This document shows positions 17,844 to 38,238 of a DNA stretch of 43,852 nt, one piece after another. This stretch comes from Candidatus Dorea intestinavium. GTDB lineage: Bacteria; Bacillota; Clostridia; Lachnospirales; Lachnospiraceae. Each line of letters begins with the position of its first letter. Position 1 is the stretch's first letter. The notes under the pieces are model-generated. The model saw only the letters and a program-made list of their open reading frames with translations. It made no database searches and was not told where the DNA came from. The position numbers were made by a program, and so were the translations under genes. The stretch covers positions 1 to 43,852 of the forward strand of contig DXHJ01000106.1 of assembly GCA_019113475.1 (NCBI GenBank). The letters are read 5' to 3'.

Positions 17844-19166
17844 GTGATTTTTATGAGTATAAAATCAGCATATATGGTACCTCATCCACCCCTTATTATC
17901 CCCGAAATTGGCGATGGTAGGCAAAGAGGAATAGCTGATACCATCACCGCTTATGAAGAAGTGGGACAAGAAATTGGTAACCTAAAACCGGAAACTATTA
18001 TCCTTATTTCTCCCCATCAAACTCTTTATCAAGATTATTTCCATATCTCACCAGGTACCAAAGCCTTTGGTGACTTTTCTCCTTTTCTAGCCGGTGATGT
18101 TAAGATGGAGCTTCCTTATGATGAAGATTTTACGAAAGCTCTTTCTACTCTTTGTAAAGAAGAAGACTTTCCCGCTGGAACTAAAGGGGAGTTAGAACCA
18201 AAACTAGATCATGGCACCATGGTACCCCTTTATTTTGTTAACAAGTACTGGCAAAATTATAAGTTAGTACGAATTGGTCTTGCCGGACTTTCTCTCGAAG
18301 AGCATTATCATTTTGGAGAATTAATTAACCAGGTAATTCGGGAGTTAAAACGAGAGGTGGTTATTATTGCGAGTGGCGATTTATCTCATCACTTAAAAGA
18401 TAGCGGCCCCTATGAATTTACACCTGAAGGGCCTTTATACGACAAAGAAATTATGGCCATTATGGGCTCTGGAGATTTCTCTAAACTCCTTACCTTTACC
18501 GATAACTTTCTCAGAAAAGCCGGCGAATGTGGTCATCGTTCTTTTACCATTTTGGCGGGAATCTTAAGCCATACCCGAGTTGCTGCCAAAACTCTTTCTT
18601 ATGAAGGTCCCTTTGGAGTTGGTTACGGCGTCGTTAAATACACGCCTTTAACCAGTATTAACCCTTATGTTCAACTAGCGAAAGAGACGATTAAAACTTA
18701 TCTAGCTTCAGGCAATGCTCTGCCTTTGCCAAAAGGTCTACCTGATGATTTTTATCAAAGCCAGGCTGGCGTTTTTGTTTCTCTCAAAAAGGAAGGGCAG
18801 CTTCGAGGTTGTATTGGCACCATTTTACCCACCAAAGATTCTCTAGGGGAAGAAATTATCCAAAACGCCATTGAAGCCTCTGCCTTTGATCCCCGTTTTT
18901 TACCCGTTGCTCCAATTGAACTAGACAAGCTAGAAATAAGTGTCGATATTTTAGGACCTTTAGAGGCAATTACTTCTCTTAATCAACTCGATGTAAAGCG
19001 CTATGGTGTAATTGTCACAAAAGGCGGCAAGCGCGGCTTACTACTGCCGAATCTAGAGGGTGTTAATAGCGTCAAAGAACAAGTGGAAATAGCCAAGCAA
19101 AAAGCGGGTATTGAAGAGGATGAAAATTTAAAATTAGAACGCTTTGAAGTTATTCGCCACACCTAA
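17844..19166 (+). CDS. AmmeMemoRadiSam system fusion protein: MEMO1-like (N) + AMMECR1 (C)
   Basis: N-terminal MVPHPPLIIPEIG...IASGDLSHHL (MEMO/LigB-like); C-terminal GVFVSLKKEGQLRGCIGT...ISVDILGPLEAI (AMMECR1). Track start is GTG; ATG at 17853 is a likely alternative. Confidence 0.93.
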   Translation: MIFMSIKSAYMVPHPPLIIPEIGDGRQRGIADTITAYEEVGQEIGNLKPETIILISPHQTLYQDYFHISPGTKAFGDFSPFLAGDVKMELPYDEDFTKALSTLCKEEDFPAGTKGELEPKLDHGTMVPLYFVNKYWQNYKLVRIGLAGLSLEEHYHFGELINQVIRELKREVVIIASGDLSHHLKDSGPYEFTPEGPLYDKEIMAIMGSGDFSKLLTFTDNFLRKAGECGHRSFTILAGILSHTRVAAKTLSYEGPFGVGYGVVKYTPLTSINPYVQLAKETIKTYLASGNALPLPKGLPDDFYQSQAGVFVSLKKEGQLRGCIGTILPTKDSLGEEIIQNAIEASAFDPRFLPVAPIELDKLEISVDILGPLEAITSLNQLDVKRYGVIVTKGGKRGLLLPNLEGVNSVKEQVEIAKQKAGIEEDENLKLERFEVIRHT

Positions 19167-19178
19167 AAGGAGGCTCTT

Positions 19179-20006
19179 ATGAAACTAACTTGTCCTGTCT
19201 GTTTTCGCCACTGTCAACTGGCACCCAACCAATTGGGGTTTTGCGGGGCCAGAAAAAATAGTAACCAAGAAATTATTTGCGATAATTATGGTCGCATCAC
19301 GGCTATGGCTCTTGATGACATTGAGAAAAAACCACTACGATTATTTTTCCCTGGTAGCAAAATTCTTTCTGTTGGTAGTTATGGCTGTAATTTACGCTGT
19401 GCCTTTTGTCAAAATTATGATATTTCCATGCAAACTCTGACGAATAAGGATACTATTTACCTCTCTCCTAATGCTTTATTAGAAGAGGCCATAAAGCAAA
19501 AGGCTTTTGGTAATATCGGGGCTGCTTTTACCTATAATGAACCATTAATTAGTTACGAATACGTTCTAGATTGTGCCAAACTCTTAAAGAAAAATGATTT
19601 GCAAGTTGTCGTCGTAACCAATGGCTGTATCTCGCCAGCCGTATTAGAAGTTCTTTTGCCTTTCGTTGATGCAATGAATATTGATCTAAAGGGTTTTAGT
19701 GAAGACTATTATAAAAAAGTCGGTGGAGACTTTGAAAGCGTCAAAGCTTTTATTAAAAAAGCTGCGCCAAAATGCCACATCGAATTAACCACCTTAATCG
19801 TGCCAGATGAAAATGATTCTGTAGCAGAAATAGAAAAAGAAGCAAAATGGATTGCTTCTCTCTCACCTGATATTCCTTTGCACCTGACGCGCTTTTTCCC
19901 TCGTTATAAAATGCTTGATAAAGAGGCTACGGATATTAAAGAGCTATTAGCCTTGGCTACCGTCGCCAGAAAGCATTTAAACCAAGTCTTTTTAGGTAAT
20001 TGTTAA
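19179..20006 (+). CDS. amrS: AmmeMemoRadiSam system radical SAM enzyme
   Basis: GSYGCNLRCAFCQNYDIS (CxxxCxxC), TYNEPLISYEYVLD, DAMNIDLKGF, LHLTRFFPRYKM; 12 bp after the MEMO-AMMECR1 gene. Confidence 0.95.
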   Translation: MKLTCPVCFRHCQLAPNQLGFCGARKNSNQEIICDNYGRITAMALDDIEKKPLRLFFPGSKILSVGSYGCNLRCAFCQNYDISMQTLTNKDTIYLSPNALLEEAIKQKAFGNIGAAFTYNEPLISYEYVLDCAKLLKKNDLQVVVVTNGCISPAVLEVLLPFVDAMNIDLKGFSEDYYKKVGGDFESVKAFIKKAAPKCHIELTTLIVPDENDSVAEIEKEAKWIASLSPDIPLHLTRFFPRYKMLDKEATDIKELLALATVARKHLNQVFLGNC

Positions 20007-22074: not shown

Positions 22075-23037
22075 TTATACTATTAATTTGGTTTTTATGC
22101 CATTGTCGATTTTGATTCCTACTTCAGCTCCTACTTGCAAAGAAAAGTTTTCTTGCTCTCTAATTAGAATAATATCTTCTCGTACACGAAGATAATATTG
22201 ATTATAAAATCCTAAGAATTCGGATTTCGTAATGGTCCCGACTGCCTCAGAATTTTCTCTCTCCAAAGAGATACTTAAATCTTCTGGTCGACACTTTATT
22301 ATTTTTCCACTTTTCGTAGTAAAAGTATTAATCGGTCCTAAAAAACCCATGGTGTATTCATCTTTGGGTTGTAAGTATACTTCTTTTGGTGAGCCAACTT
22401 GTGTTAATCTACCTTCATGCATAATCCCAATCTTATCAGCAATTACCATGGCTTCTTCCCGGTCATGGGTAACAAAAATAGTTGTAATTCCAAATTGTCT
22501 TTGAATCTCTTTAATTTCTTCCCGCATTTTAATTCGTAGTTTGGCATCTAAATTGCTTAAAGGTTCATCTAATAATAATACTTTAGGTCTAGTAATTAGG
22601 GCTCTAGCAAGCGCTACCCTTTGTCTTTGTCCTCCGGATATTTCTCCTACCCCTGCTTTAGCGTAGTCTTTTAAGCCCACCGCTTCTAGAAATTTAGTAG
22701 CTTCTTTTAGTGCTTCTCTTTTCTTATAACCTCTAAATTTAAGGCCGTACATAACATTTTTTTCAACTGTCATGTTCGGAAATAAAGCATAGGACTGAAA
22801 GACAGTGGAAACAGGTCTTTTTTGTGGATCTTCTGTCGTGATATCTTCACCTTCAATTAAAATTCGACCACTGTCAGGTTTTAAGAAACCGCCAATCATC
22901 TTAAGGGTGGTGGTTTTCCCACAACCTGAAGCACCAAGAAGGCAAAGAATTTCTCCCTTTTCTACGCCAATCTCTAGTTCTTTTACTACTTTATGATGAT
23001 CAAAACTTTTACTAATCTTATCCAATGTTAGAAACAT
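22075..23037 (-). CDS. ABC transporter ATP-binding protein (Fe3+/polyamine/phosphonate-type, FbpC-like)
   Basis: GASGCGKTTTLKMIGG (Walker A), EISGGQRQRVALARAL, VLLLDEPLSNLD. Confidence 0.93.
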   Translation of the reverse strand: MFLTLDKISKSFDHHKVVKELEIGVEKGEILCLLGASGCGKTTTLKMIGGFLKPDSGRILIEGEDITTEDPQKRPVSTVFQSYALFPNMTVEKNVMYGLKFRGYKKREALKEATKFLEAVGLKDYAKAGVGEISGGQRQRVALARALITRPKVLLLDEPLSNLDAKLRIKMREEIKEIQRQFGITTIFVTHDREEAMVIADKIGIMHEGRLTQVGSPKEVYLQPKDEYTMGFLGPINTFTTKSGKIIKCRPEDLSISLERENSEAVGTITKSEFLGFYNQYYLRVREDIILIREQENFSLQVGAEVGIKIDNGIKTKLIV

Positions 23038-24712
23038 AAGGTGCTCCTTTCTTTTTTCCTTTGGTTAAACCAATAAACAACAAATTCACCACGACGGTGC
23101 AAAAAATCAAAACAGTAGAAATCATCGAGGCTTCCGCATATTTTCCCGTATTAATCGCATCAAACAAGGTAAATACGGCGATTTTTTGACCTGGCGTCAC
23201 CAAGAAAATAACTGCTCCTGCTGTTACCATTGCACTAGTAAAATTATTGACAAAGCCTACCATAAAGGCATTTTTAATATTAGGTAAGATAATATCCTTT
23301 AAGATTTGGGGCTTTGTTGCCCCTAAGTCAGCTGCTGCTAAATCTAACTCTGTGGATAATTGGGTAAGCGAAGCCGAAGTTACTTTGGTAGTAATTGATA
23401 ATTGTTTAAAAATCATATTGAGGACAACGATCACCGCTGTTCCCGTTAGTTTAAGAGGCAGACTATTAAAAGCTAAGATGTAGCCAATCCCAAAACAAGA
23501 ACCAGGAATCATATAGGGAATGGTTACCACAAAATCCCAGAAACTACCTAGATAAATTTTTCTGCGGTCAATATAATAAGAAAGCAATATGCCAATAAGG
23601 CTGCCCACTAGAGCCACAATTAAGGCATAAGTAATGCTACGAATAAACGTGTCTGCACTGCGATTCATCATATTTTGAAAGGGTTCTAAGGAAAAATGTC
23701 GTTTCCCCTTTTTTAACTTACTAAAACTATTCAGGAAAATAGACCCATATTGTAAGGTCATTACACTATAAAAAAGCAAAGATAATGCGATTATCAAAAA
23801 ACCAATGAAGCCACCCGGTCGATACTCAGCCTTTTCTACCTTGGCTTCACTATTTTCCCGGGCTAACCAGCGCTCATTCTTTTTCATTAAGTAACGATAA
23901 AAAATAAAAACTATAATGGCCGGCACTAAGAGCAAAACATTCATGGCTGCGCTTTTTTCTAAATTCGAAAAGCCCACTAACTGCATATAAATTGCCGTTG
24001 CAAGATTTTCATATCTTCCCCCTATTACCACCGGCGTACCATAATCAGCCATCGAGCGAATGAACGAAAGTAAAAAGCAAACGAAGATTGCTGGTTTAAT
24101 TAAGGGCAATAAAACCAATCTATAGGTACTCGAATTTTTCCCGCCTAAATCTTTAGAAGCCTGTAATAAATTTCCATCGACTCGGTCTAATAAACCGATT
24201 AATAATAAGGCATTTAAAGAAGAAAAATAAATAGTTTGCATAATAACAACGCCGATAAAGCCATAAGGATTTAAGGAAAGGCCTAAAAGTCCATGGGTAA
24301 TACTGCCTCTTCTCCCAAAGAGTTGAATATATGCAAGTGAAGAAACAAAAGGCGGTGATACCATGGTAATCAATAAAAAGGTGGAAAATATAGCTTTCGC
24401 TTTAGGTTTTAAAAACACCACAAAAGAAGCCACCGCCACTGATAATAGGGTAGAAAATACTCCTGCTAAAAAAGCCACAAAAACGCTGTTCCATAAAAGC
24501 TTTTTGTTCTTACCAAACAATTCCTGATAAATAGAAAAACTTATGCCTGTTGGGGTTTTAACACTGCGCAAAACCACACATAAGATAGGATATAAAATAA
24601 ATAATAAAATTGCTACAATCAAAACAATAATCATTAATTTATCAATAATGATAAAAAGGCGGGAGCCTTTTGACTGCTCCCGCGTAATTTTAACTTCTTG
24701 CTTACTCTTCAC
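23018..24712 (-). CDS. ABC transporter permease, fused two-domain (FbpB-like)
   Basis: Two permease halves with EAA-like loops (LLQASKDLGGKNSSTYRLVLLPLIKP and LDLAAADLGATKPQILKDIILPNIK). Confidence 0.9.
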   Translation of the reverse strand: MKSKQEVKITREQSKGSRLFIIIDKLMIIVLIVAILLFILYPILCVVLRSVKTPTGISFSIYQELFGKNKKLLWNSVFVAFLAGVFSTLLSVAVASFVVFLKPKAKAIFSTFLLITMVSPPFVSSLAYIQLFGRRGSITHGLLGLSLNPYGFIGVVIMQTIYFSSLNALLLIGLLDRVDGNLLQASKDLGGKNSSTYRLVLLPLIKPAIFVCFLLSFIRSMADYGTPVVIGGRYENLATAIYMQLVGFSNLEKSAAMNVLLLVPAIIVFIFYRYLMKKNERWLARENSEAKVEKAEYRPGGFIGFLIIALSLLFYSVMTLQYGSIFLNSFSKLKKGKRHFSLEPFQNMMNRSADTFIRSITYALIVALVGSLIGILLSYYIDRRKIYLGSFWDFVVTIPYMIPGSCFGIGYILAFNSLPLKLTGTAVIVVLNMIFKQLSITTKVTSASLTQLSTELDLAAADLGATKPQILKDIILPNIKNAFMVGFVNNFTSAMVTAGAVIFLVTPGQKIAVFTLFDAINTGKYAEASMISTVLIFCTVVVNLLFIGLTKGKKKGAPYVSNIG

Positions 24713-25781
24713 CTTTGTCTCCCATTAATGTTTCCCATTTTTCCAGGATAGTATCTCTTTGTGAACCAAATAAGGATAAATCTTCTTTCATCAGCTGTGC
24801 TTGATCAAAATCAAGTTCTAAACCTTTTAGTTCTGGTTTTACTAAAAGTGTAGTATTTTTCTTATCAATTCCAGCTAACATTACTTGATTTTCATCATCA
24901 CTAAAGAACCATTCAATAAAAGCTTTTGCAGCTTTGGTATTATCTGCATTAGCAAAAGCTGCTACTCCTTCTGGTACATAAGGCATGCCATCACTTGGAT
25001 AAATTACTTTAACATTAGCACTTTCTTCCAATTCATCAAGAGTACCATCTAGATAAGTAATACCAATGGCCACTTCGCCAGCTGCTACTTTTGTGCTTGG
25101 ATCTGATCCTCTTTTTGAATAATAAGCAACATTTTCATTTAAATCTTCAAAATATTTCCAGCCTGCTTCTTCACCTTTTTCTTGAAGTAGCGCATTTACT
25201 ACCGCATAGTTTGTTCCTGAAATTGCCGGATTTGACATCAAAATCTCACCCTTATATTGTGGATCTGTTAAATCATCCCAACTTTTTGGTTCTTCTAAAC
25301 CTTTTTCTTTTAAGATGTCTTCATTAACAATAAAGCCAACAACAGTAAGGCCTTTAGAGAAATAATAATTGTCACTATCTTTGTATTCAGGGGCTAAGTC
25401 TTTGCTTGCAGCAAAATCAACTTGCTCTAATAAATCATTTGCTTTTGCATCCATAAAAGCATCAATGCCGCCACCAAACCAAAGATCAGCTGCTGGCGTG
25501 CCACCCTCAGCTTTTAGTTTTGAAAGTACTTCTCCAGAAGACATAGAAATAAACTCTACTTTAGGACCCACCTCTTCGGTGTATTTGTCAAAAAGTGGTT
25601 GATATTCTTCACTGGTTGTAACAACTTTTAATGTTCCCTCTAACTTCTCGGTGGCTGCTTCTTTCTGAGAATCGGTTTCCTCTGTCTTTGTATCTTCTTT
25701 TACTTCTTCTTTTTTACCACAGGCTGCCAAACTAAAAACCATGGTTACCATTAGCAAAAGAGCAATAATTTTCTTTTTCAT
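24702..25781 (-). CDS. ABC transporter substrate-binding lipoprotein (iron FbpA-like)
   Basis: Lipobox VFSLAACG; TLKVVTTSEEYQPLFDKYTEEVGPKVEFISMSSGEVLSKLKAEGGTPAADLWFGG; overlaps permease gene. Confidence 0.88.
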   Translation of the reverse strand: MKKKIIALLLMVTMVFSLAACGKKEEVKEDTKTEETDSQKEAATEKLEGTLKVVTTSEEYQPLFDKYTEEVGPKVEFISMSSGEVLSKLKAEGGTPAADLWFGGGIDAFMDAKANDLLEQVDFAASKDLAPEYKDSDNYYFSKGLTVVGFIVNEDILKEKGLEEPKSWDDLTDPQYKGEILMSNPAISGTNYAVVNALLQEKGEEAGWKYFEDLNENVAYYSKRGSDPSTKVAAGEVAIGITYLDGTLDELEESANVKVIYPSDGMPYVPEGVAAFANADNTKAAKAFIEWFFSDDENQVMLAGIDKKNTTLLVKPELKGLELDFDQAQLMKEDLSLFGSQRDTILEKWETLMGDKGEE

Positions 25782-25901: not shown

Positions 25902-26669
25902 TTACCGCTTCTCCTGGGCTAAGTAGGAAGCACCTAAAGCCCCTGCATACTTTCCCAACTTTTGGTTTTTTACTTCTTGCTTTAACTTCCTACTTAAAAG
26001 AGTGGCGAAAAAATCATTTTCGCTTAAACCTCCGGTTAAAATTAGATTAGCTGGGAGGTTTTTCTTTCTACTAAGTTGTGCTACCTTTTCGGCTACAGAG
26101 TCAACAATTCCGGCAGCAATATCTTCTCTTTTTCTGCCTTCCCCAATATAGCTAATAATTTCCGATTCTGCAAAGACTGTACATAAGGAGCTAATGGGTA
26201 GCACCGTGCCACTTTCTGCTAATAAGAACAGTTCGTCTAACCCAATTCCTAGCCGATTAGCCATAACTTCTAGAAATTTTCCGGTACCAGCTGAGCATTT
26301 ATCATTCATAATAAAATCACTTACTAGGCCTTGCTCTAAAATAATGCACTTGGTGTCTTGACCACCTACATCGATAATACCACATGAATCACCTGCTAGC
26401 TCTTTACCGCCGCGCCCGTGACAAGTAATCTCCGTTATAATATGATCTGCATAATCTACTGCTATTCGCCCATACCCGGTAGCCACCACCTTGACATTAT
26501 CTGCTCTTACATCGATGTTTTCTTCTAAAAGATGCTCTCGAATCGCCTCTGCTGTTTCTTTACTACTCCAACCAGTTGGTACTACAAATTTTTCTTCTAA
26601 GTCTCCTCGCACCACAACCTTTGATGCGGTAGAGCCAATATCAATTCCTACATAAAACATTTTCTTCAT
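25902..26669 (-). CDS. 2-hydroxyacyl-CoA dehydratase/double-cubane reductase activase (BadF/BadG/HgdC ATPase family)
   Basis: MFYVGIDIGSTASKVVV; VGGQDTKCI; NDKCSAGTGKFLEVMANRLG; ILTGGLSEN. Confidence 0.94.
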   Translation of the reverse strand: MKKMFYVGIDIGSTASKVVVRGDLEEKFVVPTGWSSKETAEAIREHLLEENIDVRADNVKVVATGYGRIAVDYADHIITEITCHGRGGKELAGDSCGIIDVGGQDTKCIILEQGLVSDFIMNDKCSAGTGKFLEVMANRLGIGLDELFLLAESGTVLPISSLCTVFAESEIISYIGEGRKREDIAAGIVDSVAEKVAQLSRKKNLPANLILTGGLSENDFFATLLSRKLKQEVKNQKLGKYAGALGASYLAQEKR

Positions 26670-26672
26670 CCT

Positions 26673-26927
26673 TTAGCAGTATTTATCCCTTTGCGGGTTA
26701 ATGTCTTCTTCTATCTCCACTATTTTTTCAATACTAATTTCTTTACCCTTAATAGTCTCTTGAATCTGTCGCAAATTTTCTTTTTTGACAATTAAAGAAA
26801 CTCCACAACACTTACTAGCGCTTCTTGGTGTTGGAGCAATTTTAGCATAGATTGTTTCTTTCCTTAATTCTCGGTAGAGACGCATCGCATTATCGTGATT
26901 AGGAAATAAAATATAATTCATCATCAT
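26673..26927 (-). CDS. DUF3343 family protein
   Basis: Short protein NYILFPNHDNAMRLYRELRK...APTPRSASKCCGVSLIV; tightly packed between reductase and activase. Confidence 0.85.
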   Translation of the reverse strand: MMMNYILFPNHDNAMRLYRELRKETIYAKIAPTPRSASKCCGVSLIVKKENLRQIQETIKGKEISIEKIVEIEEDINPQRDKYC

Positions 26928-28201
26928 TAATTATTTAGCATCTCGATAAAAGCGCTAATTCTTGTTCTTAATTGTTGGGCATCACTATCTGTATAATCAG
27001 TTTCAATACCTAGTACCGGAATGCCGGCTTCTTTCATGGCTCTTTCTACTAAGAATCCTTCTGTATCATATAAATTACAAAATTTAAGGTTTACATCGAT
27101 AATACCATCTACTTTATACTCCTTAGCCAGTCTTAAAATATCATCGATTCTACCCGTATTGGGGGTAAAACAAGCACAATTAATCTTCATGTAACGTTCT
27201 GCTAAGGCTTCGATTTCTTCATCTATAGTCTCTGCTTTTTCATCCACAAAATTTTCAAAATAACGAGTTCCCGTGCAGGTTTCTTCACAGACTACAATTG
27301 CTCCACTGGTTTCAATTAATTGGTGAAGTTTCCAGTTAGGAATTGCCATTGGCGTACCCGTTACCATAATTCGTTTATCTCCTTGTTTACAAACGCTAAC
27401 GCCATTTGTTACTCGCTCTTCTAGCTCATCACAAAGCTTATTTGTCATGGTTGCAAAACGAACCGGATCATCATAGAAAGCAATTTGGGAAATCAATAAA
27501 ACATCTCTTCCGCTAATAGGCACATTTTCTTCTTTTCTAAAGTTATAAAGTCTTGCTAATGCTCTTCTCTTATCACCAATAATTTTAATACTTTTCTTTA
27601 GTGATTCAGCGGTAATTTTATTTCCGGTTTCTTTTTCAACCATTTCCATTAAAGATCTTATTTCTTCTTCCCAAGCCTTGATGTCTTTTGCTCGCTTCAT
27701 TTGTGGTAAATCCATAACATACATAGGAACATCTTCCCCCAGAATTTCCCAGGCTTTTTTCTTACCGTCACAAGTTGTTTCTCCTATATATACATCCGCA
27801 ATCCTAAAAAATGGACAGGTCCGATCAAGTCTTGCTCCTACAGAAGCTTTAATTAGTGGACAAGTATTGGTTGGCAGTACCTTTTCTCCCCCTGGCACCC
27901 AAAACTGAGAGCCACCACAAAGTCCAGTAGCAATTCCCTTAGCGGCAATAATTACTTCATCTGGTACATAAACACAGAAGGTCCCAAAAACTTTGGTGCC
28001 GTTTTTTTGTGCTTCGATAAGCTCCGCTGGTCTAATGCCATGAATATCCGCAACCACCATATCAAAGAAATCCATACTTTCTGGTCTGTTCTCTTGTGAT
28101 AAGTAAACATCCCCAAATGCTTGTGGCAAAACATCACATAAGACATCATGCATTTCCAAATCCATTCCTAGTTCTTTCCACATTGTTTGATTATCAGCCA
28201 T
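26927..28201 (-). CDS. Double-cubane-cluster-type anaerobic reductase (2-hydroxyacyl-CoA dehydratase D family)
   Basis: GLCGGSQFWVPGGEKVLPTNTCPLIKASVGARLDRTCPFFRIADVYIGETTCDGKKKAWEIL; VCEETCTGTRYFENFV; LKFCNLYDTEGFLVER; ETDYTDSDAQQLRTRISAFIEML. Confidence 0.92.
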   Translation of the reverse strand: MADNQTMWKELGMDLEMHDVLCDVLPQAFGDVYLSQENRPESMDFFDMVVADIHGIRPAELIEAQKNGTKVFGTFCVYVPDEVIIAAKGIATGLCGGSQFWVPGGEKVLPTNTCPLIKASVGARLDRTCPFFRIADVYIGETTCDGKKKAWEILGEDVPMYVMDLPQMKRAKDIKAWEEEIRSLMEMVEKETGNKITAESLKKSIKIIGDKRRALARLYNFRKEENVPISGRDVLLISQIAFYDDPVRFATMTNKLCDELEERVTNGVSVCKQGDKRIMVTGTPMAIPNWKLHQLIETSGAIVVCEETCTGTRYFENFVDEKAETIDEEIEALAERYMKINCACFTPNTGRIDDILRLAKEYKVDGIIDVNLKFCNLYDTEGFLVERAMKEAGIPVLGIETDYTDSDAQQLRTRISAFIEMLNN

Positions 28202-28237
28202 TTTATCCTCCTTAGTAATATATATTTTCCTATTACC

Positions 28238-28277
28238 ATACTAGCACTATGGTGGATATTCGTCTTATTGTTGTTTT
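28238..28277 (-). promoter_or_regulatory. Putative promoter of the double-cubane operon with 16-bp shared element
   Basis: Minus strand AAAACAACAATAAGAC(G)-17 nt-TAGTAT. Confidence 0.5.
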
Positions 28278-28306
28278 GTATCGTTGCCGGCAATTATTAT
28301 TTTTTT

Positions 28307-29452
28307 CTATAGAGAAACTATTTCTCTAATTGCCTTTAGACACGTAAGTACTTCCTCTTCTTGATTAAAAGCACCAAAAGAAAAGCGTACCGTTCCCTCT
28401 GGAAAGGTTTTTAAACTTTTATGAGCCATTGGTGCACAGTGAAGACCTACTCTCGTTAAAATTTGGTATTCACTTTCTAATTGATAAGCGACCCTAGCAT
28501 TATCTCTTCCCTTAAAATCAAGCGAGACCACCGCTCCTCGACCAGCTATACTTTTCTTACCAACAATCCTTACTGCTGGTATTTCTTTAAGTCCTTCTAA
28601 AAACTGCTTTGTTAAGTTCATCTTCTCTTGATGAATTGCTCTTATTCCTCGTTTTTCTAAATATTCTAAAGCTTTATTTAAACCCAAGATTCCTGGCAAA
28701 TTTAAGGTACCGCTTTCAAAACGATCGGGTAAAATTTCCGGCATTTGTAATAAATTAGAAAAACTGCCTGTTCCCCCACTAATCAGAGGCTCAATCTCTT
28801 TTTCGCCTTTTTTTGAAAGCATAAAACCGCCGATTCCTTGTGGTCCTAAAAGTGCTTTATGTCCAGTAAAGGTTAAAAAGTCAATCCCCTCTTCTTCCAT
28901 GTTAATAGGTAAGTCTCCTGCTGATTGCGCCGTATCAAGAATAAACAGTAAATTCCTTTCCCGGCAAATTTGACCAATTTCTTGAATGGGCATAATAGTC
29001 CCACAGACATTGGAGGCTTGTAGCATCACTACGGCTTTCGTATTGTCCTTAATTAGCTCGTTAATATCGGAGGCTTTAATGCTTCCTTCCTCATCTGCTT
29101 GAAGGAGATCAAAACTTACACCCTGTTCTTTTAATTGTGTTAAAGGACGCATTACCGCATTATGTTCCATGCTGCTAGTTATAATATGGTCTCCTTTTTT
29201 TAAGACACCTTTTAAAACCATATTTAGTGAATAAGTAATATTAGGGGTAAAAATCACATTTTTTGAATGTTTACAGCCAAATAGACGCGCTAACCGTTCT
29301 CGACACTCTAATACTTCTAATTCCACATTATAAGAGCCTTCATAATTTCCTCTATTAATATTAAAGGCCCCTTTTTCAATAAAATCAGCCATGACTTTAC
29401 CAACTCCCGGGGCTTTAGGAAATGAAGTGCTACCATTGTCAAAATTAATCAT
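28307..29452 (-). CDS. Cysteine desulfurase family (class V aminotransferase)
   Basis: INFDNGSTSFPKAPGVG; FTGHKALLGPQGIGG (PLP Lys); RVGLHCAPMAHKSL (active Cys). Confidence 0.92.
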   Translation of the reverse strand: MINFDNGSTSFPKAPGVGKVMADFIEKGAFNINRGNYEGSYNVELEVLECRERLARLFGCKHSKNVIFTPNITYSLNMVLKGVLKKGDHIITSSMEHNAVMRPLTQLKEQGVSFDLLQADEEGSIKASDINELIKDNTKAVVMLQASNVCGTIMPIQEIGQICRERNLLFILDTAQSAGDLPINMEEEGIDFLTFTGHKALLGPQGIGGFMLSKKGEKEIEPLISGGTGSFSNLLQMPEILPDRFESGTLNLPGILGLNKALEYLEKRGIRAIHQEKMNLTKQFLEGLKEIPAVRIVGKKSIAGRGAVVSLDFKGRDNARVAYQLESEYQILTRVGLHCAPMAHKSLKTFPEGTVRFSFGAFNQEEEVLTCLKAIREIVSL

Positions 29453-30685: not shown

Positions 30686-30724
30686 TATAATATTTATCTA
30701 TCAATAATCTCACCTATAGATAAA
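30686..30724 (+). promoter_or_regulatory. TATAAT -10 followed by 9-bp inverted repeat (candidate operator) in front of the ArsS-like cluster
   Basis: TATAAT at 30686-30691; TTTATCTAT (30693-30701) and ATAGATAAA (30716-30724), perfect arms, 14-bp spacer. Confidence 0.5.
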
Positions 30725-30748
30725 ACCTATTTTACACTTTCGTTAGCG

Positions 30749-31468
30749 ATGTATATAGTAGAATATATTATGAATTGGATAAGAAAAAATAAGAAAATAA
30801 TCATCTTTATTGCCCTGTTTTTTAGTGTTTTTCTACTTAATAAAATATTGAATTTGTCAGGTTATCTAGATATTCTAGATCATCTGGCTTTTTTGGAGCG
30901 TCTTATTAAAGACAATATTATTTTTGCTCTGCTTATTTATATCGGATTAACTATAATAGGTTCCGTTTTATTGGCACTTCCTGGCATTACTTTTGCCATT
31001 GCCGCTGGCCTGCTATTTGGTCCGTTTCTAGGCACCCTCGCTTGCACTATTGCTGCTACCCTTGGTGCCATTGCTTCCTTTATCATTGGAAGATTCTTTT
31101 TAAAAGATGGTCTGAAACCTTTCATTCAAAAGAATGACTATCTAAACCGTCTGCTTTTTAATAATAATAGTAAAAATGATCTCTTTATTTTAATGATTAC
31201 AAGGCTCGTTCCGCTTTTTCCCTATAATTTACAAAACTTTGCTTATGGGATTACGGATATGAAGTTATCCACTTATGCAATATTTTCCTTTCTTTTTATG
31301 ATTCCTGGTACGGCCATGTATACCATTGGGGCCGCTGGGATTGCGGATAAAGAAAATAGAGGATTACTAATTACAATTACTATGGTTTTAGCTGTTGCTA
31401 TGATTATTTTGGGCCGCTATTTGAAGAAAAAATTTGTCAATACGGAGAACCTCCATGAAGAGAAATAG
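30749..31468 (+). CDS. TVP38/TMEM64 (DedA-like VTT) membrane protein
   Basis: ALPGITFAIAAGLLFGPFLGTLACTIAATLGAIASFIIGRFF; RLVPLFPYNLQNFAYGITDMKLSTYAIFSFLFMIPGT. Start may be ATG at 30770. Confidence 0.9.
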   Translation: MYIVEYIMNWIRKNKKIIIFIALFFSVFLLNKILNLSGYLDILDHLAFLERLIKDNIIFALLIYIGLTIIGSVLLALPGITFAIAAGLLFGPFLGTLACTIAATLGAIASFIIGRFFLKDGLKPFIQKNDYLNRLLFNNNSKNDLFILMITRLVPLFPYNLQNFAYGITDMKLSTYAIFSFLFMIPGTAMYTIGAAGIADKENRGLLITITMVLAVAMIILGRYLKKKFVNTENLHEEK

Positions 31469-32432
31469 AACCCTTGATACTTCTTTATGTATCCATTGTA
31501 AAAAGTGCACAGAAAATTGCTTGTTTTTAACAAAATACAACTTAGATTTTGGAGACAGCAAACAAATTAATGACCTTGCTTATCACTGTTATCTTTGTGG
31601 AAAATGTACTGAAGTTTGTCCTGTAGGAATTGATGGTCGAGAAGTTATTTTAAGAGCAAGACAAAAAGCAGTAAGAAAAAATAAAGGTAAAATTAAAGGC
31701 TATCACTTTCTGCGGCTAGAAAAGCAAAACTATATTTTCAAAAATTATAAAAGGGCAAAGGGAAAAATTATCCTTTTCCCTGGGTGTAATTTTCCGGCTT
31801 TTTACCCGGAAACAACGAAATGCCTTTATACTTTTTTAAAATCCCATTTTAAGATTGGGATTGCCTATGACTGTTGTGGTAAACCGATTGCTGAACTTGG
31901 CTTAGAAAAAGAAGCTAATGAAATTATTGCCAGACAAAATCGTTATTATAAAGAAAATAACATTGCGGAAATTGTCGTCCTTTGTCCTAATTGCTATTAC
32001 TATCTTTCCCCTTTATTAGAAGTAAAAGTTACGAGTATTTATGAAAAACTTCACGAAATCGGCTTCAAGGGCACTATCAAAGAAGATATTTTTAATTTAT
32101 TTATTCCTTGTCCTGATAAAGAATCCCTTAAGTGGAAAAAGGAAATCCTCCCCTTTTTAGACGGTGAGGTAAAAGATATTTCCGGAATTCAATGCTGTGG
32201 TGTCGGCGGTTGTGCTCATCTAACTGAGCCGGAACTTTCAAAAACTCTACTGGAAAATTTAAAAAAGAAATCTTTAGAAAACGTTTATACCTATTGTGGA
32301 ACTTGTGGCGGCAATATTTCTCGATCTGGCGCTAAAGAGGTTCACCATCTTTTACCAGAACTATTAAAAACCAGAGAAGTTGCTGATATTAAGCACTCCT
32401 TAGTGAATAGAATAAAAACAAAATATAAATAA
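31455..32432 (+). CDS. Fe-S protein with two 4Fe-4S motifs and CCG domains (HdrB/GlpC-like)
   Basis: CIHCKKCTENC; CYLCGKCTEVCPVG; LFPGCNFPAFYP...YDCCGKPIAELG; QCCGVGGCAHLTEPE. Track start 31434 lies inside the previous gene; ATG at 31455 has SD-like ACGGAG. Confidence 0.9.
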   Translation: MKRNRTLDTSLCIHCKKCTENCLFLTKYNLDFGDSKQINDLAYHCYLCGKCTEVCPVGIDGREVILRARQKAVRKNKGKIKGYHFLRLEKQNYIFKNYKRAKGKIILFPGCNFPAFYPETTKCLYTFLKSHFKIGIAYDCCGKPIAELGLEKEANEIIARQNRYYKENNIAEIVVLCPNCYYYLSPLLEVKVTSIYEKLHEIGFKGTIKEDIFNLFIPCPDKESLKWKKEILPFLDGEVKDISGIQCCGVGGCAHLTEPELSKTLLENLKKKSLENVYTYCGTCGGNISRSGAKEVHHLLPELLKTREVADIKHSLVNRIKTKYK

Positions 32433-32447
32433 TAAAGGAGATTACAA

Positions 32448-32780
32448 ATGAATACTTATTACAATCCTGAAGACTTAGCAAAATTTGGAACGATCGGAGA
32501 AAAGGCCCCAAGCCTTGCCGAAAAGTTTTTTGATTACTACGGCGATGTTTTCGCTGAAGGTGCTTTAACTGCTCGCGAAAAAGCTTTAATCGCCCTTGCT
32601 GTAGCAACGGCCATTCAATGCCCTTATTGCATTGATTCTTACACTAACACTTGTTTAAACATGGGTGTAGACGAAACTCAAATGACCGAAGCCATTCATG
32701 TAGCAGCAGCAATAAGAGGCGGTGCTACCTTAGCTCACGGCGTGCAAATGAAAAATATTGTCAAGAAATTGGAGTTATAA
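32448..32780 (+). CDS. Carboxymuconolactone decarboxylase/AhpD-like protein (arsenosugar-associated peroxidase-like)
   Basis: AIQCPYCIDSYTNTCLNMGVDETQMTEAIHVAAAIRGGATLAHG; SD AAAGGAG; within ArsS-like cluster. Confidence 0.9.
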   Translation: MNTYYNPEDLAKFGTIGEKAPSLAEKFFDYYGDVFAEGALTAREKALIALAVATAIQCPYCIDSYTNTCLNMGVDETQMTEAIHVAAAIRGGATLAHGVQMKNIVKKLEL

Positions 32781-32784
32781 TCTT

Positions 32785-33738
32785 ATGAGTGATGTAATGG
32801 ATTTTAATGAGCATTTAATCGCTTCTGATTATGCTTATACTGCTAAGAATTTAGATGTTATGCAAATGAACTTAGGAAAGCTTTGTAACTTAAGTTGCAA
32901 ACACTGCCACGTAGAGGCTGGGCCAAAACGTACCGAAATCATGCCTTGGTCTGTTATGGAAGCTTGTCTTTTAGTTTTCGAGAAATATAAAATGAAAACC
33001 ATCGATATTACCGGTGGTGCTCCAGAAATGAACCCTAATTTTGAAAAGCTTCTGCGAAAGGCTGCCAAGATTTCTTCTCATGTCATTGTCCGGACAAACT
33101 TAGTAATTTTAAAAGAGGAAAAATACGCTCATTTTCTCGATTTATATAAAGAGCTTAAGATAGAGGTTGTCTGCTCTCTTCCTTATTATCGTCCTGATAC
33201 TATGAACCGAGTCAGGGGAGATGGAACTTTTGAAACTTCTATCGAAATCTTACAAAAATTGAATCAATTAGGTTATGGCAGGGAAGAGGGACTGGTTTTA
33301 AACCTTGTCTATAATCCCTCAGGTGCTTTCTTCGCTCCGCCCCAAGAAACTATGGAAGCCGAATACAAATACCATTTAAAGAAAGATTTTGCTATTGATT
33401 TTAATCATCTTTTTACCATTATTAATAATCCCGTGGGACGTTTTGGTGCTTTCCTTAAAAGAAGTGATAATTATGATGGTTATTTAAAGAAACTAGAAGA
33501 AAGCTTTAATCCGGCTACACTTGAAGGCATGATGTGCCGTTTTCAATTATCAGTAAGCTATGATGGTTCTGTTTATGACTGTGATTTTAACCAAGCAATT
33601 GACTTAAAAATCACTTCTGATAAGACCATCTTTGATCTTGTTTGCGAGGATTATTCTCCTCGTAAAATACAATTTAAGAATCACTGTTATGCTTGCACAG
33701 CTGGTCAAGGATCAAGTTGTGGTGGTGCTACAAATTAG
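32785..33738 (+). CDS. arsS: Radical SAM protein, ArsS/rSAM-selenodomain family
   Basis: MNLGKLCNLSCKHCHVEAGP (CxxxCxxC); C-terminus MMCRFQLSVSYDGSVYDCDFNQ...HCYACTAGQGSSCGGATN. Track start 32758 is upstream of the likely ATG at 32785. Confidence 0.93.
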   Translation: MSDVMDFNEHLIASDYAYTAKNLDVMQMNLGKLCNLSCKHCHVEAGPKRTEIMPWSVMEACLLVFEKYKMKTIDITGGAPEMNPNFEKLLRKAAKISSHVIVRTNLVILKEEKYAHFLDLYKELKIEVVCSLPYYRPDTMNRVRGDGTFETSIEILQKLNQLGYGREEGLVLNLVYNPSGAFFAPPQETMEAEYKYHLKKDFAIDFNHLFTIINNPVGRFGAFLKRSDNYDGYLKKLEESFNPATLEGMMCRFQLSVSYDGSVYDCDFNQAIDLKITSDKTIFDLVCEDYSPRKIQFKNHCYACTAGQGSSCGGATN

Positions 33739-33747
33739 GAGAAAATT

Positions 33748-34155
33748 ATGACAAAAAATGATATAAATACGGCTTTTGCCGAGGGAACCGATTGTTCCCA
33801 GCTTGTTTTGGAAGCCTTTGCTGATAAACTAGCGATGGATAAAGATTTAGCTCATCGCATTTCTGCTGCTTTTGGTGCCGGCATGCATCAAGGTGAAACT
33901 TGTGGCGCAGTAACTGGCGCCGGTATGGTTTTAGGCCTTAAATATGGAAATGACAAAGAACTTTTGCTCACAAAAACAGAAGAATTTAGAAACCAAATAG
34001 CTAAAAAATATAATTCTTGCATGTGCAAAGGGATTCTTGGCTATGATATTAGTAAAGAGGAAGAGCGAGCAAAAATACTAGAAGAAAATTTATTGTTTAT
34101 CACTTGCCCAGCTGTAGTTTTAGATTCTATTGAAATTTTGGAGAAGCTTTTATAA
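33748..34155 (+). CDS. C_GCAxxG_C_C family redox-type protein
   Basis: DCSQLVLEAFAD...AAFGAGMHQGETCGAVTGAGMVLGLKYG...CMCKGILGYD. Confidence 0.9.
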   Translation: MTKNDINTAFAEGTDCSQLVLEAFADKLAMDKDLAHRISAAFGAGMHQGETCGAVTGAGMVLGLKYGNDKELLLTKTEEFRNQIAKKYNSCMCKGILGYDISKEEERAKILEENLLFITCPAVVLDSIEILEKLL

Positions 34156-35483
34156 TGAAAAAAGCCATTATTATTTTTACTAGGATACCAGCAGAAGGAA
34201 AAACAAAAACTCGGCTTATGCCGAGTTTTTCTCCTAAAGAATGTAAAGACTTTCATATCGCTACTTTAAGGGACCTCTATGATGTTTGTGCCTCTTGCAA
34301 AAAAGACATTATTCTTAGTTACCTAGCAGATGGTGATTTTGCCTCTTTTAAAGCTTTGTTCCCAGCAAATGTAAGATTTATCCCCCAAAGAGGAACTAAT
34401 CTTGGTGAACGTATGTACTATGCTTTACTTGATGCTTTACAAGTCTATGATTGTTGCCTTCTTTTAGGAACCGATGTGCCAGAAGTTAGTAAAAAAGATT
34501 TAAAGCAAGCCTTTTCTTTTTTAAAAAATAAAGACGTTGTTCTCGGTCCCACTTTTGATGGGGGGTATTTTTTAGTTGGCATGAAAAAGCCTATTAAAGA
34601 ACTTTTTAAAGATAAAACTTATAGCCATAGTGAAGTGTTTAAAGAAGCTTATGACTCTGTCACTCCTAATTATTCGGTAGGAATTTTAACAAAAAAGCAT
34701 GATATGGATACGCTGGCAGATATCAAAAGTTACAGAAAACGTTTACAAACAGCTTCTTCTAAACATTATACTTTTACTCGAACACAAAAATTCCTAATAA
34801 AAAAAGAGCTGATTTCCATTATTATCCCCATTTATAATGAAGAAAAAACTATTAAGGACTTACAAAAACAATTGTGGCCGCTTAGAAAAGAATGTGAGAT
34901 CATCTTTGTTGATGGCGGCTCAACTGATTTAACTAAAGAATTAATTTATCCCGATTTCACTTTACTTTTCTCCGGTAAAGGAAGGGCTAATCAAATGAAT
35001 GCTGGCGCCAAAATAAGTCATGGTAGCATCTTATTTTTTCTTCATAGTGATAGTTTTTTGCCTGCTAACTTTTTAACTGAAATTAGAAAAGTTATGATTG
35101 GTCATTCCTTTGGTGGCTTTGGTATTTCTTTTCTCTCTAAGAGCCCTTTAATGCGCATCAATGAGCATTTATCTAATAGACGAATGAAAAGAGGAATTAT
35201 CTTTGGCGATCAAGGGATTTTTATTGACCGTACTCTTTTCTTTAAGATTGGCTTGTATCCTAATATTCCCATTATGGAGGATTACCAGTTATCTCTAACC
35301 TTAAAAAGCCTAGGAATTCGTCCCGGATTTGCCACTAAAACAATTGCAACTTCCGCTAGACGTTATCCCCAAGGCTTTTTAAAGAAACTTTTATTAATGG
35401 CTCAGATGGCAAGACTTCGTTCCGCTTATCGAAACGGAGTTGCCCCCGATTTAATTGCTAAAAAGTATAAAGACATCCGTTAA
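34155..35483 (+). CDS. Fusion of rSAM/selenodomain-associated transferase 1 (TIGR04282-like) and transferase 2 glycosyltransferase (TIGR04283-like)
   Basis: N-half IIIFTRIPAEGKTKTRLMP...LLLGTDVPEV...LGPTFDGGYFLVG; C-half ISIIIPIYNEEKTIKDL...EIIFVDGGSTDLT...GRANQMNAGAKISHGSILFFLHSDSFLP...IFGDQGIFIDRTLFFKIGLYPNIPIMEDYQLSLTLK. Confidence 0.93.
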   Translation: MKKAIIIFTRIPAEGKTKTRLMPSFSPKECKDFHIATLRDLYDVCASCKKDIILSYLADGDFASFKALFPANVRFIPQRGTNLGERMYYALLDALQVYDCCLLLGTDVPEVSKKDLKQAFSFLKNKDVVLGPTFDGGYFLVGMKKPIKELFKDKTYSHSEVFKEAYDSVTPNYSVGILTKKHDMDTLADIKSYRKRLQTASSKHYTFTRTQKFLIKKELISIIIPIYNEEKTIKDLQKQLWPLRKECEIIFVDGGSTDLTKELIYPDFTLLFSGKGRANQMNAGAKISHGSILFFLHSDSFLPANFLTEIRKVMIGHSFGGFGISFLSKSPLMRINEHLSNRRMKRGIIFGDQGIFIDRTLFFKIGLYPNIPIMEDYQLSLTLKSLGIRPGFATKTIATSARRYPQGFLKKLLLMAQMARLRSAYRNGVAPDLIAKKYKDIR

Positions 35484-35487
35484 TGTT

Positions 35488-36213
35488 TTATTGTTCCTTC
35501 TTTTTTTTATCACGGTCTTGATAAATTTTTCGTAAAAGAAAGACAAAGGCTGATAGCGCAAAAAGAATAAAGAGACCTGTTACCAACATTTTTGCTCCAC
35601 CAGTGAGCATGCCACCTACATAGGAATAAATAATCGTTGCTGGTAGCTGGCCAATTCCTGTAGCAATAAAAAACTGGAGAAAAGACATACCCGTAAGCCC
35701 TGCCGCGTAACTTACTATATCAAAGGAGACAAAGGGTAGAAGCCTGGCAATTAGAATGCTTTGCTTACCGTATTTGTTAAAAAACTTATCGATACTTTCT
35801 AAGGCTCCTTTACTTGTTAGCTTGATTACAACGTCACGACCTAGTACTCTGGCAATAAAAAAGCAAAGCGCTGCTCCGGCCATAGCACTACTCCAGGATA
35901 AAATTGCTCCTTGCCACCAACCAAATAGATTAGCATTGGCAAAAGTCAAAAGGAAAGCGGGTAGAGGTGCCACGACAGATTGTAAAATCATCAATAAAAA
36001 GGAGATCGCTGCCGCATAAGCCCCATAGGAAGCCACAAAATTTTTAATAACCTCAAAGTCACCGGTTGCAAACATAGCAAATATTTTATTTGCTTCCTTT
36101 TTTACAGAAGGGACTAAAAAATAGCTTAAAATAGACGCTAAAATAAGTAGGATTACCATAATACGTAGGGTCCATTTTCCTTTTTTAACAGTTTCCTTAT
36201 TCGTTTCTTTCAT
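35488..36213 (-). CDS. TVP38/TMEM64 (VTT) membrane protein, second paralogue
   Basis: PLPAFLLTFANANLFGWWQGAILSWSSAMAGAALCFFIARVLGRD; LPFVSFDIVSYAAGLTGMSFLQFFIATGIGQLPATIIYSYVGG. Confidence 0.9.
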   Translation of the reverse strand: MKETNKETVKKGKWTLRIMVILLILASILSYFLVPSVKKEANKIFAMFATGDFEVIKNFVASYGAYAAAISFLLMILQSVVAPLPAFLLTFANANLFGWWQGAILSWSSAMAGAALCFFIARVLGRDVVIKLTSKGALESIDKFFNKYGKQSILIARLLPFVSFDIVSYAAGLTGMSFLQFFIATGIGQLPATIIYSYVGGMLTGGAKMLVTGLFILFALSAFVFLLRKIYQDRDKKKKEQ

Positions 36214-36360
36214 TTCCTTTATCTCCTTTTTTTACTAAAGCTCATACCTAGTATATTTTAACTGACTCGCTTCGTCTAATCGGTATTTTGAATATCTTGC
36301 TTTTATTAATAGATTTCTTAAATAAAACTTACCAAATAATATCTTATGGAGGAATTTCTT

Positions 36361-37374
36361 ATGACAATTGACCCTTTAATTACCCGCTACTTAGAAAGTG
36401 ACTTCTTTAAAAGCAGGCTAAAAATCCCCACTAAAGCTAATGTCTCTTGGGACTTCCTCGCTCAAGGAGAATACAACCTAAATGTGGTTTTTCTTCATCC
36501 TGTTACGAAAAAGAACTATGTCTTACGCATGAATTTTGGTAGTCAAATGGATTTAGAAAGCCAACTTCGTTATGAAGCAAATGCGCTTAAACTACTAGCT
36601 AAAACGAAAAGGACCCCGCTTCTCTATCTGCTTGATGATAGCAAAAAAGTTATCGAAACAGATGTTTTAATTATGGAATATCTGCCGGGAGAACCTTTAA
36701 ATTACCACACAGACATTCCTTTAGCCATGGAGATATTAGCCGATATCCATAGCTTAAAATTACCCCAAAATCATGGCCTTGTTACACCGTCTTCACCCGT
36801 TGAAGCAATCCTTTTAGAGTGTCGTAAAATGTTTTCTCACTACGAGACTTCTTCTCTAGCAAAGCCGCAAGTAGTGACAAGGGTAAAGCAAATGCTGAAT
36901 CATTTGACAAAAAAAAGTAAAAGTCTATCAATAACTTCTACTCCCTATCGTTGCCTTATTAATACTGAATTAAATAATACTAATTTTCTAATTAACGGAG
37001 CAGGCAAAGAAAACTATCTAATTGACTGGGAAAAACCTATTTATGCTTCTCCCGCTCAAGACCTTGGTCATTTTTTTGCCCCTACAACCACTTTTTGGAA
37101 AACTGATGTGTTTTTAAGTCCTAAAGAGATTAATAAGAATATTGATTACTATATTGCAAGGGTTGACAATCGTTTTCCCACTTCTTCTTTAAAAGAAGAA
37201 ATCAATACATATTTAGAAGTCACCTGTTTAAGAGGCATTACTTGGTGTGCTATGGCTTTTGTTGATTACAATAGTGGTGAAAAAAAACTGACCAACGAAT
37301 CAACCAGATTAAAACTGGGTCAATACATTAGTCAGCAATTCTTAGATAAAATTGAAACTTCTTATTTAGTTTAG
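36361..37374 (+). CDS. Aminoglycoside/choline-kinase-type phosphotransferase family protein
   Basis: QGEYNLNVVFLHPVTKKNYVLRMNFGSQ; LIMEYLPGEPLN; YLIDWEKPIYASPAQDLGHFFAPTT. Track start 36346 overlaps the SD; ATG at 36361 follows GGAGG. Confidence 0.82.
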   Translation: MTIDPLITRYLESDFFKSRLKIPTKANVSWDFLAQGEYNLNVVFLHPVTKKNYVLRMNFGSQMDLESQLRYEANALKLLAKTKRTPLLYLLDDSKKVIETDVLIMEYLPGEPLNYHTDIPLAMEILADIHSLKLPQNHGLVTPSSPVEAILLECRKMFSHYETSSLAKPQVVTRVKQMLNHLTKKSKSLSITSTPYRCLINTELNNTNFLINGAGKENYLIDWEKPIYASPAQDLGHFFAPTTTFWKTDVFLSPKEINKNIDYYIARVDNRFPTSSLKEEINTYLEVTCLRGITWCAMAFVDYNSGEKKLTNESTRLKLGQYISQQFLDKIETSYLV

Positions 37375-37380
37375 CTGCGC

Positions 37381-38238
37381 TTACTTTTCAAAAGCTGCCT
37401 TTGCATCTGCACCTTTGGCACCATCTTTAATAATGAAAAGTTGATCCGCTTTAAATCCAGCATCTTGTAACAGAGATACTCCTGTTTTTGCACATTTGTT
37501 ACCACTGTAACACATGAAATAGACAGGTTTTGCTGGATCAAGATCATTAGACATTTCTACAAGTGACTTTTGAAGTTTTACATCTTCAACATCAGTAAGG
37601 TCGGAATGAAGAGAACCTGCAAGGTGACCTGCCTCAAAGTTTTCATCATCACGAACGTCAATGATTTGCGCATCTTTGTCAGCGATTACATCTTTTGCTT
37701 CGGCATATTGCCAGTCAATGTTTTCATCAACACGACTTGTTGTAAGTGCATTTTTCATCTTTGCAAGTGCTTTAGCGCCACCTTCAACGGTATAGATTAA
37801 ATCTTTATCAATGCCAGCATCTTCTAAAACGCCTGTAGCTTTTTGTGCTCCACGTTGTCCGCTATTGCAAACAATATAAATTTCTTTACCATCCATTAGC
37901 TTATCTTTAGCATAAGTTGTCATTTTTTCAACTAATGATTCGTCTTCTAATGGGAAGATTGGGCACCATTGTGAATTAATAAGTCTGCCTTCTACATAGT
38001 TATCCCATTCTCTTACGTCAAGAATATGAGTCTCGCCAGCTTTAGCTGCTTTTAGTGCCTCGTCGGCAGAAACATATTGCCATTCGCTTTCTTCTTTCGC
38101 ATCGTCCGTTTTAGCACTTTCTTCGGTTTTCGTATCTTCTGTTTTTGCTTCCTCTTTACTACCACATCCCATAGCCAGTGTACCAGCTAAAAGAATTGTC
38201 GCACCTAATAATACTATTTTTCTTTTCACTTTCTTCAT
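37381..38238 (-). CDS. Lipoprotein with two rhodanese domains
   Basis: Lipobox LAMGCG; domain 1 THILDVREWDNYVEGRL...YIVCNSGQRG; domain 2 AQIIDVRDDENFEAGHLAGS...YFMCYSGNKC. Confidence 0.92.
   Translation of the reverse strand: MKKVKRKIVLLGATILLAGTLAMGCGSKEEAKTEDTKTEESAKTDDAKEESEWQYVSADEALKAAKAGETHILDVREWDNYVEGRLINSQWCPIFPLEDESLVEKMTTYAKDKLMDGKEIYIVCNSGQRGAQKATGVLEDAGIDKDLIYTVEGGAKALAKMKNALTTSRVDENIDWQYAEAKDVIADKDAQIIDVRDDENFEAGHLAGSLHSDLTDVEDVKLQKSLVEMSNDLDPAKPVYFMCYSGNKCAKTGVSLLQDAGFKADQLFIIKDGAKGADAKAAFEK

Follow-up and report, generated by a model that had tools for sequence, protein, structure and literature searches.

What does an operon built around ArsS make when no ArsM methyltransferase accompanies it? 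The question is raised by a gene cluster of the gut-type anaerobe Candidatus Dorea intestinavium (Bacillota; Clostridia; Lachnospiraceae), which lies in a stretch of 43,852 nucleotides analyzed here at its full length as the window (GenBank assembly GCA_019113475.1, contig DXHJ01000106.1, positions 1 to 43,852, forward strand). Six co-directional genes encode a TVP38 membrane protein (TVP38a), an iron-sulfur (Fe-S) protein, an AhpD-like protein of the TIGR04169 family, the radical S-adenosylmethionine (SAM) protein ArsS, a C_GCAxxG_C_C protein, and a fused transferase; a gene for a second TVP38 protein (TVP38b) converges on their end (Table 1). The original prediction, made from the sequence alone, proposed that the product of this ArsM-free cluster may not contain arsenic. 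We favor another answer, to which we assign a probability of about 0.48: the operon would carry out the arsenosugar-type ("rSAM/selenodomain") pathway without an ArsM of its own, most likely working with methylated arsenic made by neighbors.

The source is a metagenome-assembled genome (MAG) of 1.9 Mb, 91% complete and in 201 contigs. The base composition of the window agrees with that of the other contigs of the MAG, and a foreign or contaminating contig was rejected on this ground. Seven open reading frames (ORFs) were confirmed in the predicted order and on the predicted strands, six running together at 30749-35483 (+) and the seventh convergent (−). Position 30686, where the cluster had been taken to start, is intergenic, and the first gene opens at 30749. 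The spacings of the six genes, read from the sequence, are in order −14 (using the ATG at 31455), 15, 4, 9, and −1 bp; the convergent TVP38b gene ends 4 bp past the operon, and start codons are preceded by ribosome-binding-like GGAG stretches. Given these overlaps and small gaps, the six genes likely share a single transcript. Promoter consensus matches in the operon region occurred at chance level only, and an Rfam search returned no match. ORF and profile analysis bore out the co-directional block, its named parts, its overlapping or closely spaced genes, and the convergent second TVP38 gene.

Four curated families (ArsS, TIGR04169, TIGR04282, and TIGR04283) score over their cut-offs in this operon, which supports its assignment to an arsenosugar-type pathway. 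Window ArsS carries the radical SAM CxxxCxxC motif as CNLSCKHC, and its C terminus is the cysteine (not the selenocysteine) form of the conserved Cys/Sec motif, ending HCYACTAGQGSSCGG (PF12345, 177 bits). The catalytic and C-terminal motifs are all kept, and 61 columns are invariant across 30 aligned ArsS proteins. The solved folds closest to the ArsS structure model (pLDDT 90) are generic radical SAM/SPASM enzymes, with no solved ArsS structure in the PDB copy searched. ArsS is reported to adenosylate arsenic on the way to oxo-arsenosugars (PMC12159101, citing Cheng et al. 2021).

The position of the window protein on the ArsS tree points to arsenic as well. Its sister is the ArsS of a genome of the same family (G006; SH-aLRT 98, 62% identity), a protein whose gene immediately follows those for TIGR04169 and an ArsM. 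ArsM status switches at least nine times on this tree, and the alignment has no column that tells ArsM-linked and ArsM-free ArsS apart, in a comparison with only three ArsM-linked rows. Another genome (G405) has three ArsS genes: one is fused to ArsM (L054:4008-6038, − strand, about 676 aa), a second has a true ArsM of the arsenosugar type (524 bits) at a distance of approximately 12 kb, and the third sits in a TVP38/transferase cassette with no ArsM nearby. Arsenic chemistry is favored because the closest ArsS is ArsM-linked, because ArsM and ArsS occur as one fused protein, because no column sets the two groups apart, and because the operon shares parts with annotated arsenosugar clusters.

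Two such clusters lie on plasmids. That of Acinetobacter portensis pJNE5-X3 encodes ArsS, a TVP38-FAD oxidoreductase fusion, DUF547, TIGR04283, TIGR04282, an ArsM-like methyltransferase (177 bits, 46% identical to the ArsM of G006), and an MTA phosphorylase; that of Pseudanabaena galeata pPg_02 encodes TVP38, a mercuric-reductase-like (MerA-like) protein, ArsM, a further TVP38, and ArsS. The window cluster resembles both in combining ArsS with TVP38 proteins (two in Pseudanabaena, the FAD-fused one in Acinetobacter), and it shares TIGR04282 and TIGR04283 with Acinetobacter. In contrast to these clusters, it has neither ArsM nor a nearby MTA phosphorylase-like gene, its two transferases are fused, and HdrB/LutA-like Fe-S and C_GCAxxG_C_C proteins take the place of the MerA-like oxidoreductase. 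On Enterococcus gilvus plasmid pCR1C (L154), acr3-arsC is followed by a rhodanese gene and a gene for a YdjZ-type TVP38 protein that is 51% identical to window TVP38b. That annotated arsenosugar or ars operons elsewhere also contain genes for TVP38, rhodaneses, and glycosyltransferases counts against the arsenic-free part of the original prediction.

In the pathway that we propose, ArsS would join the SAM-derived 5′-deoxyadenosyl radical to a trivalent, lone-pair-bearing atom, and its substrate would most likely be dimethylarsinous acid supplied by other community members that have ArsM. The Fe-S (HdrB/LutA-like), AhpD-like, and C_GCAxxG_C_C proteins may give reducing power or keep this substrate trivalent. 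A nucleoside-cleaving enzyme encoded elsewhere would remove adenine and free the modified ribose; the CofC-like TIGR04282 half of the fusion would activate it, and the TIGR04283 half would attach it to an acceptor, probably a lipid or glycerol. The pair of TVP38 proteins (COG0398) could then carry the product across the membrane. Members of the COG0398 subfamily of DedA proteins are putative phospholipid scramblases and are often fused to mercuric-reductase-like domains (PMC10127716). The substrate source, the sequence of the reactions, the acceptor, and what the redox and membrane proteins do are all inferences of ours.

Several points weigh against this pathway, one being that its whole order after ArsS is conjectural. 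No ArsM was found genome-wide with models NF008823 and NF038099 in the 91%-complete MAG, the first giving partial matches of low score (61 bits at most) and the second no match, and Acr3 was likewise not found in this genome. The best ArsM candidate (C92, 61 bits) was rejected as a 205-aa UbiE-like methyltransferase with a single cysteine. A fragment of the Acinetobacter MTA phosphorylase, used as a single query, was unmatched in the window, the compared loci, and 17 other sampled contigs of this genome. Finally, in a co-occurrence sample of 399 genomes of the window's phylum and 188 Synergistota genomes, 30 of the 40 genomes with ArsS are without ArsM, and the two genes show no statistical association (pooled odds ratio = 0.92, p = 1). 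In agreement with the original prediction, the window ORFs of at least 110 aa include no gene for ArsM, ArsR, or arsenic efflux.

ArsS was detected in 2 of 60 relatives from the family, 12 of the 399 phylum genomes, and 28 of the 188 Synergistota; at the cut-offs used, ArsM was detected in 104 and 51 genomes of the two samples, respectively. ArsM accompanies ArsS in 3/12 and 7/28 genomes (pooled, 10/40) and occurs without ArsS in 101/387 and 44/160 (pooled, 145/547). In a run of 57 Synergistota genomes, chosen post hoc on the assumption that the order of our genome handles follows taxonomy, 17 have ArsS and none has ArsM, whereas 7 of the 11 ArsS genomes of Synergistota outside the run have ArsM; the picture thus differs between lineages.

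It is conceivable that a partner methyltransferase does exist, in the unassembled 9% of the MAG or as an unrecognized type, and that the arsenosugar pathway is complete. The incompleteness and fragmentation of the assembly agree with this idea, and the ArsM adjoining ArsS in the related genome G006 makes a separated ArsM plausible here. However, the same absence in 30 of 40 ArsS genomes, one of them a single-contig genome (G445), renders a hidden enzyme improbable, as does the poor quality of the best in-genome candidate. The control Synechococcus elongatus likewise matches ArsS and neither ArsM model at the cut-offs used. The absence of ArsM is real and general, in this genome and in most ArsS genomes of both samples, and to this extent the original prediction stands. 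Its further step, the reading of a missing ArsM as missing arsenic, is not warranted by the evidence, because the closest ArsS relative is ArsM-linked; the ArsM-ArsS fusion and the uniformity of ArsS sequences also leave an arsenic-free product unproven.

A second explanation keeps that further step: ArsM-free cassettes would take a nucleophile other than arsenic (selenium or sulfur) as substrate and yield a 5-deoxy-5-seleno- or thio-ribosyl lipid or glycoside, with ArsM-linked ArsS as a specialized branch. Its best support is that ArsS tracks SelD and not ArsM. SelD was detected in 12/12 phylum and 27/28 Synergistota genomes with ArsS (pooled, 39/40) and in 252/387 and 102/160 of those without (pooled, 354/547), an association that is significant but confounded by lineage (Fisher's test, pooled p = 2e-6; Bacillota_A-type, p = 0.010; Synergistota, p = 2.6e-4). 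Within the post hoc run of 57 Synergistota, in which ArsM is missing from all 17 ArsS genomes, SelD occurs in 17/17 genomes with ArsS and 19/40 without. In the window's family, the figures are 2/2 genomes with ArsS and 0/4 sampled genomes without. Genome completeness also confounds the association; completeness alone would have raised ArsM too, so that ArsM serves as an internal control for it, and lineage remains the main weakness. The search of the whole genome for selD called for by the original prediction was positive (G000:C124:1603-2520, + strand, 386.6 bits); the gene has one in-frame TGA, which probably encodes selenocysteine. SelD is necessary at most, and insufficient, for a selenium-dependent small-molecule pathway, and it is required for selenocysteine in any case.

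Selenocysteine use within the cassettes gives a mixed picture for selenium. No selenocysteine or in-frame TGA was found in ArsS or TIGR04169 in the window or the compared loci, both proteins using cysteine. Overlooked selenoproteins in the cassette were sought by reading from stop to stop with TGA as U and were rejected, this reading bringing TIGR04169 to light in many loci but always with cysteine; the sole real candidate from this reading was a rhodanese. Rhodaneses recur near ArsS in other genomes, and this one, with its putative active-site selenocysteine, speaks for a selenium or sulfur substrate; against that, a rhodanese-YdjZ pair also occurs in the arsenic operon of E. gilvus. The gene in question (L058:13160-14122, + strand, in genome G368) adjoins an ArsS cassette and has an in-frame TGA at the active-site cysteine (IVYU-TMGIRSG); its product is a probable selenocysteine rhodanese. 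The ArsM linkage of the closest ArsS and the uniform catalytic residues of the family also argue against the replacement of arsenic, and we know of no selenium or sulfur adduct made by ArsS. We regard a non-arsenic substrate as a tentative and somewhat unlikely explanation. More doubtful still is its strongest form, in which ArsS of ArsM-free anaerobes would adenosylate selenium (or sulfur), the cassette would produce seleno- or thio-ribosyl membrane lipids of a new class, and the annotation "arsenosugar biosynthesis" would be wrong for much of the family.

To place the operon in a broader genomic context, we compared 42 ArsS loci (the window, 13 regions of the same phylum, and 28 of Synergistota), counting neighbors within 8 kb. 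TIGR04282 was found at 34 loci, TIGR04283 at 33, TVP38b at 28, the CCG protein (the Fe-S protein of the window) at 24, and TVP38a at 23; TIGR04169 is present at 34 of the 42, the window included, once in-frame overlaps are allowed. True ArsM neighbors occur at only three (L053, L054, and L058). The neighbor counts disregard a drifting profile seed ("ArsM_1"), which picked up ArsS through the ArsM-ArsS fusion. The neighborhood comparison suggested by the original prediction revealed a cassette that recurs in dozens of ArsM-free loci. The order of its genes varies across the two phyla. Many Synergistota share the order transglutaminase-like, TVP38b, TVP38a, YdjY, small protein, CCG, TIGR04169, ArsS, TIGR04283, and TIGR04282, and other lineages substitute a MerA-like oxidoreductase (L063 and L065) or a flippase-like membrane protein (L059, L060, and L062). 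A search of a named genome collection with the ArsS protein returned three loci only, and TIGR04169 had no match in plasmid records. In plasmid clusters of Burkholderia thailandensis, Hymenobacter, and Thiodictyon, the 7 to 8 kb around ArsS contain no annotated arsM.

Since the same combination recurs in two phyla, its grouping is not due to chance. Chance co-transcription, or a decaying relic with no common pathway, would fit the rarity of ArsS in the family and an operon without a pathway-starting enzyme. This explanation is very improbable: the frames are intact, the spacing is tight, and the active-site motifs are all kept, and the recurrence of the set in varied order largely refutes it.

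Three further systems help to delimit the cassette. The 9- to 10-gene cassette of Synergistota (for example, L109 and L126) shares TVP38a, TVP38b, the CCG protein, TIGR04169, ArsS, both transferases, and the lack of a nearby ArsM with the window. The transglutaminase-like and YdjY genes are missing from the window, which in turn has the C_GCAxxG_C_C protein, a CCG protein extended by a ferredoxin part, and fusion of the two transferases. In G006, TIGR04169 (81% identical to that of the window) adjoins ArsS, as in the window, whereas an ArsM also adjoins and no transferase or TVP38 gene lies within 8 kb. The Escherichia coli region ydjXYZ-ynjABCDE encodes YdjX and YdjZ, orthologues of TVP38a (38% identity) and TVP38b (60% across 225 aa), together with the AhpD-like protein YnjA and a rhodanese; Synergistota cassettes additionally share YdjY and a YnjE-like rhodanese with this region. 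Unlike the window, the E. coli region has no ArsS and no transferases, and YnjA gave no BLAST match to the window TIGR04169 protein.

Taken together, these comparisons indicate that the ArsS cassette is inherited independently of ArsM in two large anaerobic phyla. ArsS, TIGR04169, TIGR04282, and TIGR04283 all carry "arsenosugar biosynthesis" names in automatic annotation. If the arsenic pathway is correct, the use of methylated arsenic from neighbors would amount to a route of arsenic through gut and digester communities that has gone unrecorded; if another element is the substrate, the annotation is wrong for many genomes. In addition, the cassette ties uncharacterized E. coli proteins of the YdjX/YdjZ/YdjY/YnjE type to ArsS chemistry.

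Table 1. The ArsS operon, the convergent TVP38b gene, and an adjacent lipoprotein gene (window positions)
Feature	Position	Strand	Profile evidence
TVP38a, VTT/DedA membrane protein, COG0398-like, YdjX type	30749..31468	+	PF09335, 75.5 bits
Fe-S protein, N-terminal 4Fe-4S dicluster and two CCG (HdrB/LutA-like) domains	31455..32432	+	PF02754, 42.5 bits
TIGR04169 "arsenosugar biosynthesis-associated peroxidase-like" CMD/AhpD protein, CPYC	32448..32780	+	195.7 bits (cut-off 120)
ArsS, radical SAM with DUF3641 C terminus	32785..33738	+	TIGR04167, 428 bits (cut-off 300)
C_GCAxxG_C_C redox protein	33748..34155	+	TIGR01909, 51.2 bits (cut-off 47.4); PF09719, 92 bits
Nucleotidyltransferase-like/GT2 glycosyltransferase fusion, 442 residues	34155..35483	+	TIGR04282 and TIGR04283
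TVP38b, second VTT/DedA membrane protein, YdjZ type, convergent	35488..36213	−	PF09335, 96 bits
Double-rhodanese lipoprotein, adjacent to the cluster	37381..38238	−	Two rhodanese domains

Individual gene products could be described more closely. The Fe-S gene likely starts at ATG 31455, its longest ORF opening at TTG 31434. Its two CCG motifs align with those of Synergistota homologues, a five-member profile of the protein matches HdrB of heterodisulfide reductase, and a structure model of moderate confidence matches the folds of LutA and HdrB. The original prediction named the parts of the cluster correctly; its label "two-cluster/CCG Fe-S protein" is better replaced, given these profile and fold matches, by HdrB/LutA-like protein with an N-terminal ferredoxin part. 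In the transferase fusion, TIGR04282 covers residues 5 to 190 (165 bits; cut-off, 134) and TIGR04283 residues 220 to 438 (208 bits; cut-off, 182); the two are separate ORFs in the other ArsS loci that have both.

Neighboring genes of the window were also recorded. Whether the double-rhodanese lipoprotein belongs to the system is uncertain. An APH/choline-kinase-like gene (36346-37374, +) adjoins the cluster, and no homologue was found near other ArsS loci. On the other side, a block at 25905-29452 (−) holds genes for a double-cubane-cluster reductase and for the activase of this enzyme, along with one for a cysteine desulfurase (TIGR01977) that comes close to the selenocysteine lyase model NF040779; a 2-aminoethylphosphonate-type ABC transporter (22075-25781) adjoins this block. 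Farther away, at 17844-20006 (+), a LigB-AMMECR1 fusion gene followed by a radical SAM protein gene resembles the AmmeMemoRadiSam gene pair.

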